35,214 bases of DNA from Bacteroidales bacterium (GTDB taxonomy: Bacteria > Bacteroidota > Bacteroidia > Bacteroidales > JAIPAP01), in NCBI GenBank assembly GCA_021740045.1, contig JAIPAP010000042.1, positions 1 to 35,214 on the forward strand, read 5' to 3'. The notes under the pieces are model-generated. The model was not told the DNA's origin and made no database searches. It saw nothing but the letters and a program-made list of their open reading frames with translations. Of this stretch, positions 11,088 through 15,139 are shown one piece after another; positions within the stretch are counted from its first letter, which is position 1; every line of letters begins with the position of its first letter. The position numbers and the translations under genes were made by a program.

Positions 11088-11843
11088 ATGAAATCTCTAG
11101 CACTTATTCTGATCATATGCAGCTTCAACTCGATTGGGGTAAATGCACAAGACACCACTTATTTTTATTATGGTGCTGGCATGGGTCAGACAACCAGACA
11201 AACAGCTATTTATATAAGGGAAGAGATCAAACTTGAGGAGGATAAAGGTTACATAATCAGGTTGATCAGCAATTCCACCGGCTTAATCTATGAAGGTGAG
11301 TTCAGTTCCATATCTCCTGATATTGAGCACGGAGAGGTAAAACATTATTCCAATAACGGAACCCTGGTAGAAATAGGCTATTTTAACAACGGCTATCCTG
11401 ACAGCCTTTGGAGGGTATATAATCCCCAAACCCAACGTGTCGACACTATTGAATACTCAAAAATAAAGGGTTTGATTGAGGATGGAGCCTTGGGAACGAC
11501 TTATCCTATGGTATACGACCATGTAGGTAAATTTCCAAGCTTTCCCGATCTGGAAGACCCATCATTGAAAAAGAACTATAAGGATTTTAATGACTATATT
11601 GCCAAAGAGCATTATTTTCCGGTTATGGGCCGGCGAATGGGGATGAGTGGATTAGTGCATCTCACTTTCACCATTGGACCTGAAGGGGATCTTCATGATA
11701 TTCAAACCGCAACCGACCAATCGCCTTATCTATACTTTGAAGCCGTTCGCATTCTGGCTAATTCACCGCGTTGGATACCCGGGGAAGATAGAGGTAGAAA
11801 GGTACCTGTATCCATGCAACAGACCATTACTTTTGGACAATAA
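11088..11843 (+). CDS. Secreted protein with MORN-like repeats and TonB C-terminal-like domain (paralogue 2)
   Basis: 251 residues, collinear along its whole length with the preceding gene: both begin with a signal peptide followed by QDTT-x-F-Y, share IREEIKL/IKEEIGL, GLIYEGEFSS, DIEHGEVKHY, SFPDLEDPSLKKNYKDFNDYI and a final TonB C-like block (MGMSGLVHLTFTIGPEGDLHDI, EAVRILANSPRW). This shows a tandem duplication that has diverged considerably. Signal peptide cleavage is expected at NAQ, about residue 21. Function is not known; the pair may be periplasmic scaffold or partner proteins. Downstream the sequence passes directly into the repeat-rich region starting near 11.9 kb. Confidence 0.72.
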   Translation: MKSLALILIICSFNSIGVNAQDTTYFYYGAGMGQTTRQTAIYIREEIKLEEDKGYIIRLISNSTGLIYEGEFSSISPDIEHGEVKHYSNNGTLVEIGYFNNGYPDSLWRVYNPQTQRVDTIEYSKIKGLIEDGALGTTYPMVYDHVGKFPSFPDLEDPSLKKNYKDFNDYIAKEHYFPVMGRRMGMSGLVHLTFTIGPEGDLHDIQTATDQSPYLYFEAVRILANSPRWIPGEDRGRKVPVSMQQTITFGQ

Positions 11844-11897
11844 TGTAAAATAAAGAGGTGATGAATAAATATAAAAAGTGGTTATGAATGGGAAAAT

Positions 11898-11991
11898 GAG
11901 TTTAAAGTTGAAAGTATAAAGTTGAGCAGGCCGCAAAACCTTGCTCCACGCTATTCGCTCTGTGCTTAGCGCTTTGCGCTTTGCTCCCGGC
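11898..11991 (+). repeat. Heptamer repeat module, copy 1
   Basis: GAG is followed by 7-nt units TTTAAAG, TTGAAAG and TATAAAG (11901-11921), then after a short spacer by seven GC-rich 7-nt units of the GCTCTAY type (GCTCCAC, GCTATTC, GCTCTGT, GCTTAGC, GCTTTGC twice, TCCCGGC) at 11943-11991. This copy lacks the CCGGG-GAGCTACGAAGCC link present in copies 2 and 3. No coding function is evident. Confidence 0.7.
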
Positions 11992-11994
11992 ATT

Positions 11995-12106
11995 GAGTTT
12001 AAAGTTGAACGTTTAAAGTTCCCGGGCAGCGAGCTACGAAGCCACTCCATGCTCCAAGCTCTCTGCTCTATGCCCTACGCTCTAAGCCCTTCGCTTTGCG
12101 CTACGC
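11995..12106 (+). repeat. Heptamer repeat module, copy 2
   Basis: A 49-nt stretch (11995-12043: TTTAAAG-type heptamers, then CCCGGGCAGCGAGCTACG and AAGCC) matches 12501-12549 at all but three bases. It is followed by nine GCTCTAY-type heptamers at 12044-12106 that are related to, but not the same as, those of the other copies. Confidence 0.8.
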
Positions 12107-12160
12107 AATCTATTTTCTAACTTCTATCTTCTACTTTCTTCAAAGGGGAGAGACCATCTG

Positions 12161-12286
12161 AATCCCGATTAAGTGCTTGTAATCATTCCGCTATCGCGTA
12201 ATGATACAATCACTAGCTCGGGATTAGCCACTCTAAATCCGTTTATCGGCTCGTGCCTCGCCTTCAATCGGATTAAGACTGGCTAA
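12161..12286. repeat. Double-hairpin cassette, unit 1 (hairpins A and B)
   Basis: Hairpin A (12161-12225) has 30-nt arms with outer pair AATCCCGA/TCGGGATT, an extra unpaired A at 12181 and a TATC tetraloop at 12192-12195. Hairpin B (12224-12286) has 18-nt arms (TTAGCCA...TGGCTAA outside, AATCCG/CGGATT inside) with an A-A mismatch (12235 with 12275) and a 27-nt loop that contains CGGC-tcgt-GCC. The unit is homologous to the next one. It may be a mobile REP/MITE-like element or a structured RNA; the sequence does not decide. Confidence 0.75.
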
Positions 12287-12405
12287 ATTCCCCGATTAAG
12301 GAACTGTAATTATTCCGTTATCACGGAACAAAACAGTTCCTAAACCGGGATTGCTTCAAGTAAATCAGTAAATTCGGCAAAGCCTCCTTCTGATTAACTT
12401 GAAGC
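12286..12405. repeat. Double-hairpin cassette, unit 2 (hairpins C and D)
   Basis: Hairpin C (12286-12352) corresponds to A: same CCGATTAAG entry, same unpaired A (12308), same TATC loop (12319-12322) and same GGGATT end, but much of the stem differs, with AGGAACTGT pairing to ACAGTTCCT. Hairpin D (12353-12405) corresponds to B: GCTTCAAGTAAATCAG pairs with CTGATTAACTTGAAGC, leaving the same A-A mismatch (12362 with 12396), and the loop holds CGGC-aaa-GCC. Pairing is kept while the bases changed. Confidence 0.75.
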
Positions 12406-12500
12406 AAAATGATCGACTGCGGTCGCATCCGCCAAATCTGCCGGTAGATGGAGAGGGTGGGCTGTCAGCAGGTACTTGGGATTTTTATGAAGGGGGAAGT

Positions 12501-12615
12501 GAGTTTAAAGTTGAAAGTTTAAAGTTACCGGGTAGCGAGCTACGAAGCCTTTGCTCCATGCACCTTGCCCCGTGCTCCATGCTCTGCGCTCTACGCTCTA
12601 CGCTCTTTGCTGCTC
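12501..12615 (+). repeat. Heptamer repeat module, copy 3
   Basis: 12501-12549 repeats the 49-nt stretch of copy 2 with three differences. Nine 7-nt units of the GCTCTAC type follow at 12553-12615. The module ends about 30 nt before the flavodoxin remnant. The stretch 12406-12500 between cassette and module shows no gene. Confidence 0.8.
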
Positions 12616-12645
12616 AATTTTTTGCTAACTACTCAACTTGTTCTT

Positions 12646-12924
12646 AAAGTCGTCGCTTTCGATACCCGCATTCATTTGGACAGCGTAAAATCCAAAGCCC
12701 TTAAGTTTGTGGTAAACACAGGAGGTTATGCCGCCAAACCAATTGCCAGCCTGCTAAAGAAAAAAGGCGGGGGCTTGATTAAGCCTCCCGAAGGCTTTTT
12801 TGTAATGAATGAACAGGGGCCCTTGGGAGATCATGAAATTGAATGGGCAACAGCTTGGGGGAAGGAAATTGCTCTATGTATTAATAAGCTGCACAAAACA
12901 ACCCAAAGAGAAAACAATGAATAG
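12646..12924 (+). pseudogene. C-terminal remnant of a flavodoxin-like gene
   Basis: A 92-codon stretch reads KVVAFDTRIHLDSVKSKALKF..., then GGYAAKPIASLLKKKGG, PPEGFFVMNEQGPLGDHEIE and WATAWGKEI. This resembles the last half of flavodoxin-domain proteins, in which an EGFxVxxxxGPL-x-x-x-EIERA-x-WG block closes the fold. The N-terminal half with the FMN phosphate loop is absent. The open frame continues upstream to an ATG at 12565, but that part is the translated heptamer tract and is not protein-like. The gene appears truncated where module 3 begins. The family assignment is from pattern only. Confidence 0.6.
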
Positions 12925-12971: not shown

Positions 12972-13139
12972 ATGGTAACTATAATAAGAAAGGGGTCTTC
13001 AAAAGAGGAGATCAGAAAGCGGATCGATAAAGCAATTGCCAAGAAGCAGAAAAAAAATATAATGCAATATGCCGGTAAGCTTAAGATAAAAATCGATCCT
13101 TTGGAATATCAAAAAAAGATAAGGGATGAGTGGAGATAA
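12972..13139 (+). CDS. Small antitoxin-like protein (partner of PIN/VapC toxins)
   Basis: 55 residues: starts MVTIIRKGSSKEEIRKRIDK, is highly basic in the middle and ends KIDPLEYQKKIRDEWR. This is the pattern of short Bacteroidota antitoxins (xxIxKGxxKEEIxKxL...DPLxIQKxLRDEW) that precede PIN-domain toxins. The stop overlaps an ATG in the next frame, as expected for a toxin-antitoxin operon, but that second gene is broken. It would bind and neutralise a VapC-like RNase and regulate its own promoter; with the toxin dead here it may only act on other toxins or simply be decaying. The family name is an inference from sequence pattern. Confidence 0.6.
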   Translation: MVTIIRKGSSKEEIRKRIDKAIAKKQKKNIMQYAGKLKIKIDPLEYQKKIRDEWR

Positions 13140-13477: not shown

Positions 13478-15139
13478 ATGGAAGAAGAGAAAAAGACCAA
13501 TCCCGACAGCGAAGCGCACCTGAAAAGCACCAACAAATATTTTGATGTGGACGGGCCGGTGTTCTGGCCGGCAGCCGTGTTAATTATCATTTTCATATCC
13601 GTAACACTGATCATTGGGGAGCCGATGGATAAGGTATTTGTGGTGATACAAGACAACATCTCCGATTATGGGGGATGGTTTTTTGTGTTGGCGGTGAATT
13701 TTTTCCTGGTGTTTGTCATTTATATTGCCTTTAGCAAATTTGGAAAAATACGCTTGGGCGGTGATAAAGCCCGGCCGGAGTTTTCAATGGGGGCTTGGTT
13801 TGCCATGCTGTTCAGCGCCGGTATGGGTATCGGTATCTTGTTCTGGAGTGTGGGGGAACCCATGAACCACTTCATCAATCCCCCGCAGGGAGAGGCCGGC
13901 ACCGTTGAAGCGGCAAGGCTGTCAATGGAAACTACCTTTTTGCACTGGGGATTACATGCATGGGGCATTTATGCATTAGTGGGCATGGCGCTGGCCTTTT
14001 TTACCTTTAATAAGAAGTTGCCCCTTACCATTAGCTCGGTGTTTTATCCTTTATTAGGCGATAGAGTTCATGGTCCTTGGGGTAAAGTGATCAATGTGCT
14101 GGCGGTAGTGGCCACCTTGTTTGGGTTGGCTACTTCACTTGGGCTTGGTGTGCAGCAGGTGAGTGCAGGCCTGGCCCATCTGTTCGGCCTTACCGATAAT
14201 ACCACCACACAGGTCATCCTGATCACCCTGATCACTTTTGCCGCTACCGGTTCGGTTGTGGCAGGATTGAGTGGCGGTGTAAAGCGGCTCAGTCAGCTAA
14301 ACATATACCTGGGCGCAATTTTCCTTTTATTTATTATGATCGTGGGGCCCACGCTGTTTATCCTCGATTCGTTTGTGCAAAATATGGGAAGCTATATGCA
14401 ACACTTCTTCCAGTTATCCACCTGGACGGAAACCTATCAGCAATCCGACTGGCAGAATAACTGGACGGTTTTTTACTGGGCCTGGTGGATTAGCTGGTCG
14501 CCGTTTGTGGGGATGTTTATTGCGCGTATCTCCCGCGGGCGAACGCTTAAGGAATTTGTGCTGGGTGTATTAATAGTACCCACTATCATCACCTTCCTGT
14601 GGCTTTCGGCTTTTGGCGGTAGCGCCATGTTTTTGGAAATTAATGCCCTGGCCGATGTTGCCGGTGCCGTTACCGAAAATGTAGCCACTTCGCTGTATGT
14701 GCTGCTTGAGCAGTTCCCGCTTTCAATAGTCACTTCTTTTGTAGGCGTGGTGTTGATCACCAGTTTTTTTGTCACCTCCTCCGACTCGGGTTCATTAGTG
14801 GTTGATTCACTCACAGCAGGTGGTAAGCTGGATGCCCCGGTACCCCAACGAATTTTCTGGGCGATGACCGAGGGAGCCGTAGCAGCCGTATTGCTCATCG
14901 GGGGTGGACTGGGAGCGCTGCAAACAGCGGCCATTTCCACAGGATTGCCCTTTGCAATATTGCTCATCATTCTTACAACCAGTTTATTAAAGGGATTAAG
15001 AGAAGAGCATGATGATATGATGAAAGTGGAACGCGACAAAGAACGAAAACAATACCGGGAAACCATCACCCGTATGATAAAGCGACGTGATAAAGGAACT
15101 CACGATGCCCCGGAAGGGGGAACGGAAGATAAAGTATAA
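13478..15139 (+). CDS. BCCT family osmoprotectant transporter (betaine/choline/carnitine)
   Basis: 553 residues with about 12 membrane segments; N- and C-terminal tails are charged and cytoplasmic, the latter ending in a Lys/Glu-rich helix. Diagnostic blocks are GEPMDKVF after TM1, the glycine stretch SAGMGIGILFWSVGEP (TM3, substrate and coupling-ion region) and WTVFYWAWWISWSPFVGMFIARISRGRT (TM8, with the Trp residues of the betaine cage). The GMGIG form is that of Na+- or H+-coupled betaine/choline carriers rather than the CaiT exchanger form. It should import a quaternary amine for osmoprotection. It is first in an operon with a universal stress protein 28 nt downstream and a betaine-binding lipoprotein. 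The exact substrate is not certain. Confidence 0.93.
   Translation: MEEEKKTNPDSEAHLKSTNKYFDVDGPVFWPAAVLIIIFISVTLIIGEPMDKVFVVIQDNISDYGGWFFVLAVNFFLVFVIYIAFSKFGKIRLGGDKARPEFSMGAWFAMLFSAGMGIGILFWSVGEPMNHFINPPQGEAGTVEAARLSMETTFLHWGLHAWGIYALVGMALAFFTFNKKLPLTISSVFYPLLGDRVHGPWGKVINVLAVVATLFGLATSLGLGVQQVSAGLAHLFGLTDNTTTQVILITLITFAATGSVVAGLSGGVKRLSQLNIYLGAIFLLFIMIVGPTLFILDSFVQNMGSYMQHFFQLSTWTETYQQSDWQNNWTVFYWAWWISWSPFVGMFIARISRGRTLKEFVLGVLIVPTIITFLWLSAFGGSAMFLEINALADVAGAVTENVATSLYVLLEQFPLSIVTSFVGVVLITSFFVTSSDSGSLVVDSLTAGGKLDAPVPQRIFWAMTEGAVAAVLLIGGGLGALQTAAISTGLPFAILLIILTTSLLKGLREEHDDMMKVERDKERKQYRETITRMIKRRDKGTHDAPEGGTEDKV

Follow-up and report, generated by a model that had tools for sequence, protein, structure and literature searches.

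Tandem diverged hairpin modules in a Bacteroidales genome and their relation to a MITE superfamily with a conserved, strand-specific internal hairpin

The window analysed here is a stretch of 35,214 nucleotides from a Bacteroidales bacterium (contig JAIPAP010000042.1), in which a TonB-family gene (ending at 11843) and a BCCT transporter gene (starting at 13478) flank an array of hairpins at positions 12161–12408. On the minus strand the array folds to −122.5 kcal/mol, where shuffled versions average −63.3 (z −11.9), and on the plus strand to −101.7 kcal/mol (z −11.5), with none of 200 shuffles as low on either strand. Four consecutive hairpins, A to D, lie where a preliminary description made from the sequence alone had placed them, and each of them, folded alone, is better than all of its own shuffles. 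That description was given for the plus strand; hairpins do form on both strands, but the minus strand has the better fold and is the one conserved in the family described below, and the strand assignment is corrected here accordingly.

All four hairpins are therefore described on the minus strand, those of the A and C type being named hp2 and those of the B and D type hp1 after the corresponding hairpins of the MITE copies. Hairpin A (12161–12226; AATCCCGA...CGGGATT) has a GATA loop and a kept T bulge (fold z −6.9), while hairpin B (12224–12286; TTAGCC...GGCTAA) contains a kept T-T mismatch (fold z −6.2). Hairpin C (12287–12353; fold z −9.5) is a diverged copy of A, and hairpin D (12351–12408; fold z −6.5), which contains an inverted repeat of 94% over 18 nt, is a diverged copy of B. 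The gap-free alignment of A with C over 63 columns shows two-sided changes in 5 pairs, one-sided changes in 3 and no change in 14, and 4 mismatches of A are paired in C, where only two had been counted before. With the partners slid, about 40% of the A/C cells are paired as compared to 92% in the true register; the shuffle control is weak with two rows (19/500). Between B and D, 8 pairs carry two-sided changes with pairing kept, and the mismatch shared by the two (12235/12275 and 12362/12396), already recognized in the preliminary description, is A-A on the plus strand and T-T on the minus strand. Most differences between the two tandem units leave the pairing intact.

Read 5' to 3' on the minus strand, D and then C form a first hp1-hp2 module (12288–12408), and B and then A form a second one (12161–12286) at a distance of 127 bp, the two being visible as a direct repeat of 73% over 62 nt with a spacing of 127. 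This order matches the hp1-hp2 order of the MITE copies. The hp2 hairpins of the window are closed by CCCG/CGGG, where the MITE copies continue into their right TIR, and neither a family TIR nor a target duplication was found flanking 12161–12408, so that the window copy itself lacks the ends of a MITE. Its assignment to the family rests on hp2 homology (covariance model R2 scores A at 72.9 bits, E 1.4e-11, and C at 79.2 bits, E 6.4e-13) and on the hp1-hp2 order. Since the hp1-hp2 unit is present twice and TIRs and target duplication are missing, the segment is probably a tandem pair of diverged modules that is now either an immobile fossil or a composite. The fold has probably remained under selection while both modules diverged.

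The surroundings of the array contain further repeats and small reading frames. Imperfect direct repeats (GAGTTTAAAGTTGAAAGTTTAAAGTT...GCGAGCTACGAAGCC; 91% over 55 nt, 506 bp apart) lie on either side of it at 11882–12043 and 12485–12549, as do degenerate short-period repeats of the CTCTGCTCTACGCTC type at 11939–12109 and 12556–12618. An ORF at 12565–12924, which has no Pfam match, resembles a truncated flavodoxin-type gene in its C-terminal part (KFVVNTGGYAAKPIASLLKKKGGG...) and is possibly a gene remnant, and a lysine-rich ORF of 55 aa at 12972–13139 (MVTIIRKGSSKEEIRKRIDKAIAKKQKKN...) may be a small gene.

A covariance model of the two units and a wider search with it had been proposed in the preliminary description as the way to check the array. 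Model R1, for which A and C were the only input, matched both source copies, two further places in the same genome (C82, E 5.4e-8; C75, E 1.2e-7), six sites in genome G024 and one each in G042 and G191; matches in G176 and G140 were too weak in score to count. Used as a BLAST query, the C75 copy identified 29 places in its own genome at E < 1e-10, and the G024 copy gave many matches in G024 and G042. An own-genome BLAST match at C72, which is without hairpins, was set aside as chance. Model R2, built from ten hp2 sequences and applied with a cut-off of E up to 0.01, detected hp2 in 48 of the 393 genomes sampled from the order, often in several copies per genome. An exact-pattern search of named genomes returned 66 stretches. 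Most are from Bacteroidales (Marinilabilia, Anaerophaga, Draconibacterium, Salinivirgaceae, Prolixibacteraceae), a distribution that by itself points to a Bacteroidales origin of the window, and a few come from Ignavibacteria and other Bacteroidota; some stretches in other phyla, few in number, had no surrounding element and appear chance-like. No family match was found among the viral contigs, plasmids and phages searched. The copies lie between ORFs in 55 of 59 cases, confirming the intergenic placement that was to be checked, and the orientation of the flanking genes is mixed without clear bias.

None of the elements corresponds to an Rfam family: the window gave no match at the gathering score, and the three matches obtained for 12 family loci belong to a riboswitch, an SRP RNA and Flavo-1, none of them being one of the elements. 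The literature searched, with ISfinder and subscription papers outside its scope, describes other MITEs of Bacteroidota, and the hp2 family was not found in it. The hp2 MITE family is large and apparently undescribed, and it seems to lack annotation in the genomes of Bacteroidales.

The standard member is a dispersed element of 142–232 bp without a transposase gene, bounded by TIRs that begin with CCYRARTT and, outside these, mostly by a 5-bp AT-rich target duplication; as a family these elements have the features of MITEs. Every member follows one plan, in which a left hairpin (hp1), where the left TIR pairs with an inverted copy of itself close by, is followed by the central hp2 and then by the right TIR, which usually lies inside a third small hairpin. 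The central hairpin is the homologue of A and C of the window and reads AAYCCCGAYTTAG..., an internal UU bulge and ...TTAATCG. Copies in the genome of the window are 141–191 bp long, run from CCTAAGTTGAGCGATTT to AATCGCTCAATTTGGG and have the TIRs CCTAAGTTGAGCGATT / AATCGCTCAATTTGGG; other organisms have CCYRARTT-type ends. In G024 and G042 the TIRs differ (CCGAGATTAGTCAATAG / CCCAAATTCGTCAATTGA) and the plan is identical.

Nearly all full-length copies of the own genome have exact or 4/5 duplications of 5 bp, chance pairing of the flanks being far lower, and the duplicated sequence varies from copy to copy (TAACA, ATATA, TAATA, TTCTA, TGAAA, TTTAA, TTTTA, TTTTT, TAATT, TGATA, TTAGA, TATTA). 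L072, L080, L087 and L096 match at 4/5, and L076 and L073 do not match. Full elements with exact duplications (TTAAA, TTTAA, ATTAA, ATAAT) and the same structure are common in other organisms. We classify the repeat as a superfamily of MITEs in Bacteroidales and related groups rather than as a REP/RAYT system. Minimal forms occur in the own genome, one of 46 bp with the duplication TGATA (L103) and others of about 31 bp (L099, L111). Many own copies contain nested small palindromes (TCCCGAAGGTTTTCGGGA, CCCCGATGTTTCGGGGCAGGC, CCCGACTAATCGGG). In L082, L083, L084, L087 and L092 the internal points at which such palindromes (for example TCCCGAAGGTTTTCGGGA and CCCCGATGTTTCGGGGCAGGC) have been inserted or exchanged are fixed, which suggests a second, smaller repeat inside the first. 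In G213 two near-identical copies lie 271 bp apart.

Covariation in hp2 is very strong. In a set of 92 distinct hp2 copies the paired share of cells is 94.3%, as compared to 71.8% when shuffled and 40–49% when slid, and two-sided changes occur at 20 of the 23 pairs, a level reached by none of 500 shuffles. An absence of further copies and of covariation in a larger alignment had been named in the preliminary description as what would refute it; both are present. Since R2 served as the model to which the sequences were aligned, the alignment leans towards the R2 structure and may favour G-U pairs, a limit that applies also to the comparison in which G-U exceeds A-C by 39 to 7 (25 sequences to 4; sign p 5e-5; 55 representatives below 80% identity). 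The excess of G-U far above A-C indicates that one particular strand is folded, the one with AAYCCCG at its 5' side, which is the minus strand in the window; the selected strand acts either as RNA or as one specific DNA strand. The internal UU bulge is present in 46/55 and 53/55 representatives. Dozens of species have kept one and the same fold of the central hairpin, a sign that the folded strand is still being recognised.

Not every hp2 is part of a complete MITE. Copies that lack TIRs or are closed occur at G191 L125, at G246 L135 and L234, in the second copy of Marinilabilia rubra L189 and in the window array. At Marinilabilia rubra L189 (3609–3781) no more than 40 bp separate a full MITE from the closed hp2 without TIRs that comes after it, and this is the nearest parallel to the array of the window.

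Variable target duplications together with TIRs are hallmarks of a DDE-type transposase, while Y1 enzymes make no target duplication. The preliminary description had taken the repeat for a REP/MITE-like element mobilised by a Y1-type transposase, or alternatively for a structured RNA. A MITE-like repeat with a selected folded single strand is what we find; mobilisation by Y1 is unsupported, because the family has TIRs and 5-bp duplications of variable sequence and because the strongest hairpins at the Y1 genes are unrelated. The check for RAYT/IS200-like genes that had been proposed shows four Y1_Tnp genes in the genome. Of the hairpins in their vicinity the strongest are short and have no relation to hp2, and the shared hairpins and absence of target duplication that mark a REP/RAYT system were not found.

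The source of a DDE transposase was sought in several ways. IS1380, considered as a partner on the basis of ISEcp1 ends and the 5-bp duplications, was rejected as PF13701 is absent from the genome of the window, G024 and G042. When the DDE_Tnp_1 genes in eight genomes were compared with the family by their TIRs, a single IS982 copy, in the MITE-rich genome G393, came near; this element is about 1.07 kb long with ends ACCTGAGTTCGATTAAT, and the likeness of its ends (ACCTGAGTTCGA) to those of the family (CCTAAGTT/CCTGAGTT) extends over 8–9 bases only. The IS982 gene was detected neither in the genome of the window nor in most of the family-bearing genomes tested, and IS982 therefore remains only a lead as mobiliser. 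Neither the own genome nor G213, a genome in a single contig, nor the 8-kb loci yielded an autonomous element with the full family TIR. Solo left and right ends in the own genome, considered as ends of such an element, all turned out to be truncated copies or minimal forms of palindromic type, and TIR pairs 0.5–5 kb apart in family loci were only neighbouring MITE-like copies.

We consider it probable that the window carries tandem diverged modules of the Bacteroidales MITE superfamily, that a DDE transposase supplied in trans would move the element through its TIRs, and that a second partner would read hp2 as a single strand, either in the element transcript or in one specific DNA strand. The ends are generally regarded as all that a MITE requires, and a conserved internal hairpin is not in itself needed by a MITE moved via a TIR-reading transposase, which counts against this explanation, as do the missing autonomous element and the lack of TIRs and target duplication at the window array. 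The ends vary by species while the internal hairpin is fixed on one strand, suggesting that MITEs of this kind pass through a further step of recognition, or that they spread a host function. As different TIR pairs carry the same strand-specific hp2 with its fixed bulge in dozens of Bacteroidales lineages, the recogniser may be other than the TIR-reading transposase, and hp2 might be a mobile structured module in its own right, read as RNA or as one DNA strand by a conserved protein (or RNA) of host or transposon, which copies like the array of the window would carry without TIRs; we advance this tentatively. With its many natural variants, hp2 offers a concrete RNA or DNA structure for finding the binding partner.

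The strand-specific excess of G-U and the conserved UU bulge would also suit a host structured RNA, in which hp2 and the window array would be a functional non-coding RNA or mRNA-end structure captured or spread by MITEs, and the hp2 copies without a surrounding MITE, including that of the window, point in the same direction. No Rfam family matches, and the copies are dispersed, multi-copy and not oriented to flanking genes, unlike cis-regulatory RNA, which makes this reading unlikely. The hairpins might also be passive palindromes, maintained without function by arm-against-arm correction through template switching: such correction can produce two-sided changes, and nested palindromes have been inserted or exchanged within own-genome copies. 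Correction would, however, tend to erase mismatches, whereas different species retain the UU bulge along with further unpaired positions, and no strand asymmetry of G-U and A-C is expected from it, so that we regard this as improbable. A REP/RAYT-type repeat, whose Y1 transposase would recognise the hairpin on one DNA strand, seems to us highly improbable. The substrates of IS200/IS605 are strand-specific hairpins with unpaired bases in the stem, which hp2 resembles, and Y1_Tnp genes are present, but variable 5-bp duplications and TIRs are not products of Y1 transposition and the strongest hairpins around the four Y1 genes are short and unrelated.

Comparison with known small repeats places the superfamily, on the preferred reading as MITEs moved in trans, beside several described systems without coinciding with any of them. 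IS982-derived MITEs are similarly short, non-coding elements of Bacteroidota, mostly intergenic in the case of MITECca01 of Cardinium, an example that IS982 spawns MITEs in this group (PMC9769881), and P. gingivalis MITE239 has a printed TIR ACGTGAGTTCGA that resembles the IS982 ends of G393 and G213, which are near ACCTGAGTT (PMC4596501). Their TIRs agree with those of the hp2 family over about the first 8–9 bases only, and no conserved internal hairpin is described for them in the relevant parts of these reports (PMC9769881, PMC4596501). The BrickBuilt MITE of Porphyromonas gingivalis is likewise a modular, intergenic element of Bacteroidales, but as described it has a core of 23-nt tandem repeats, an IS5-like TIR GAGACCTTTGCA and a range of one species group (PMC4596501). 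Pneumococcal BOX elements share the modular plan of small repeats with strong single-strand structure, variable module number and no transposase of their own; they belong to another phylum, no shared sequence is known (boxA, boxB and boxC being compared by architecture only), and the part of the BOX report concerned gives no cross-species covariation of a core hairpin (PMC3049150).

Among the many-copy extragenic palindromes, REP/BIME elements with RAYTs are alike in their number and placement; the hp2 family is longer, has TIRs and 5-bp duplications, and has no link to the Y1 genes of its genome. Strong short palindromes lie near three of these Y1 genes (GGTGCGCTGCACC, CAAGGGGCTACAGCCCCTTG and GGCACGCGTTTGCAACGCGTGCC; loci L021, L023 and L024), which together with their palindromes are likely separate REP/RAYT systems.
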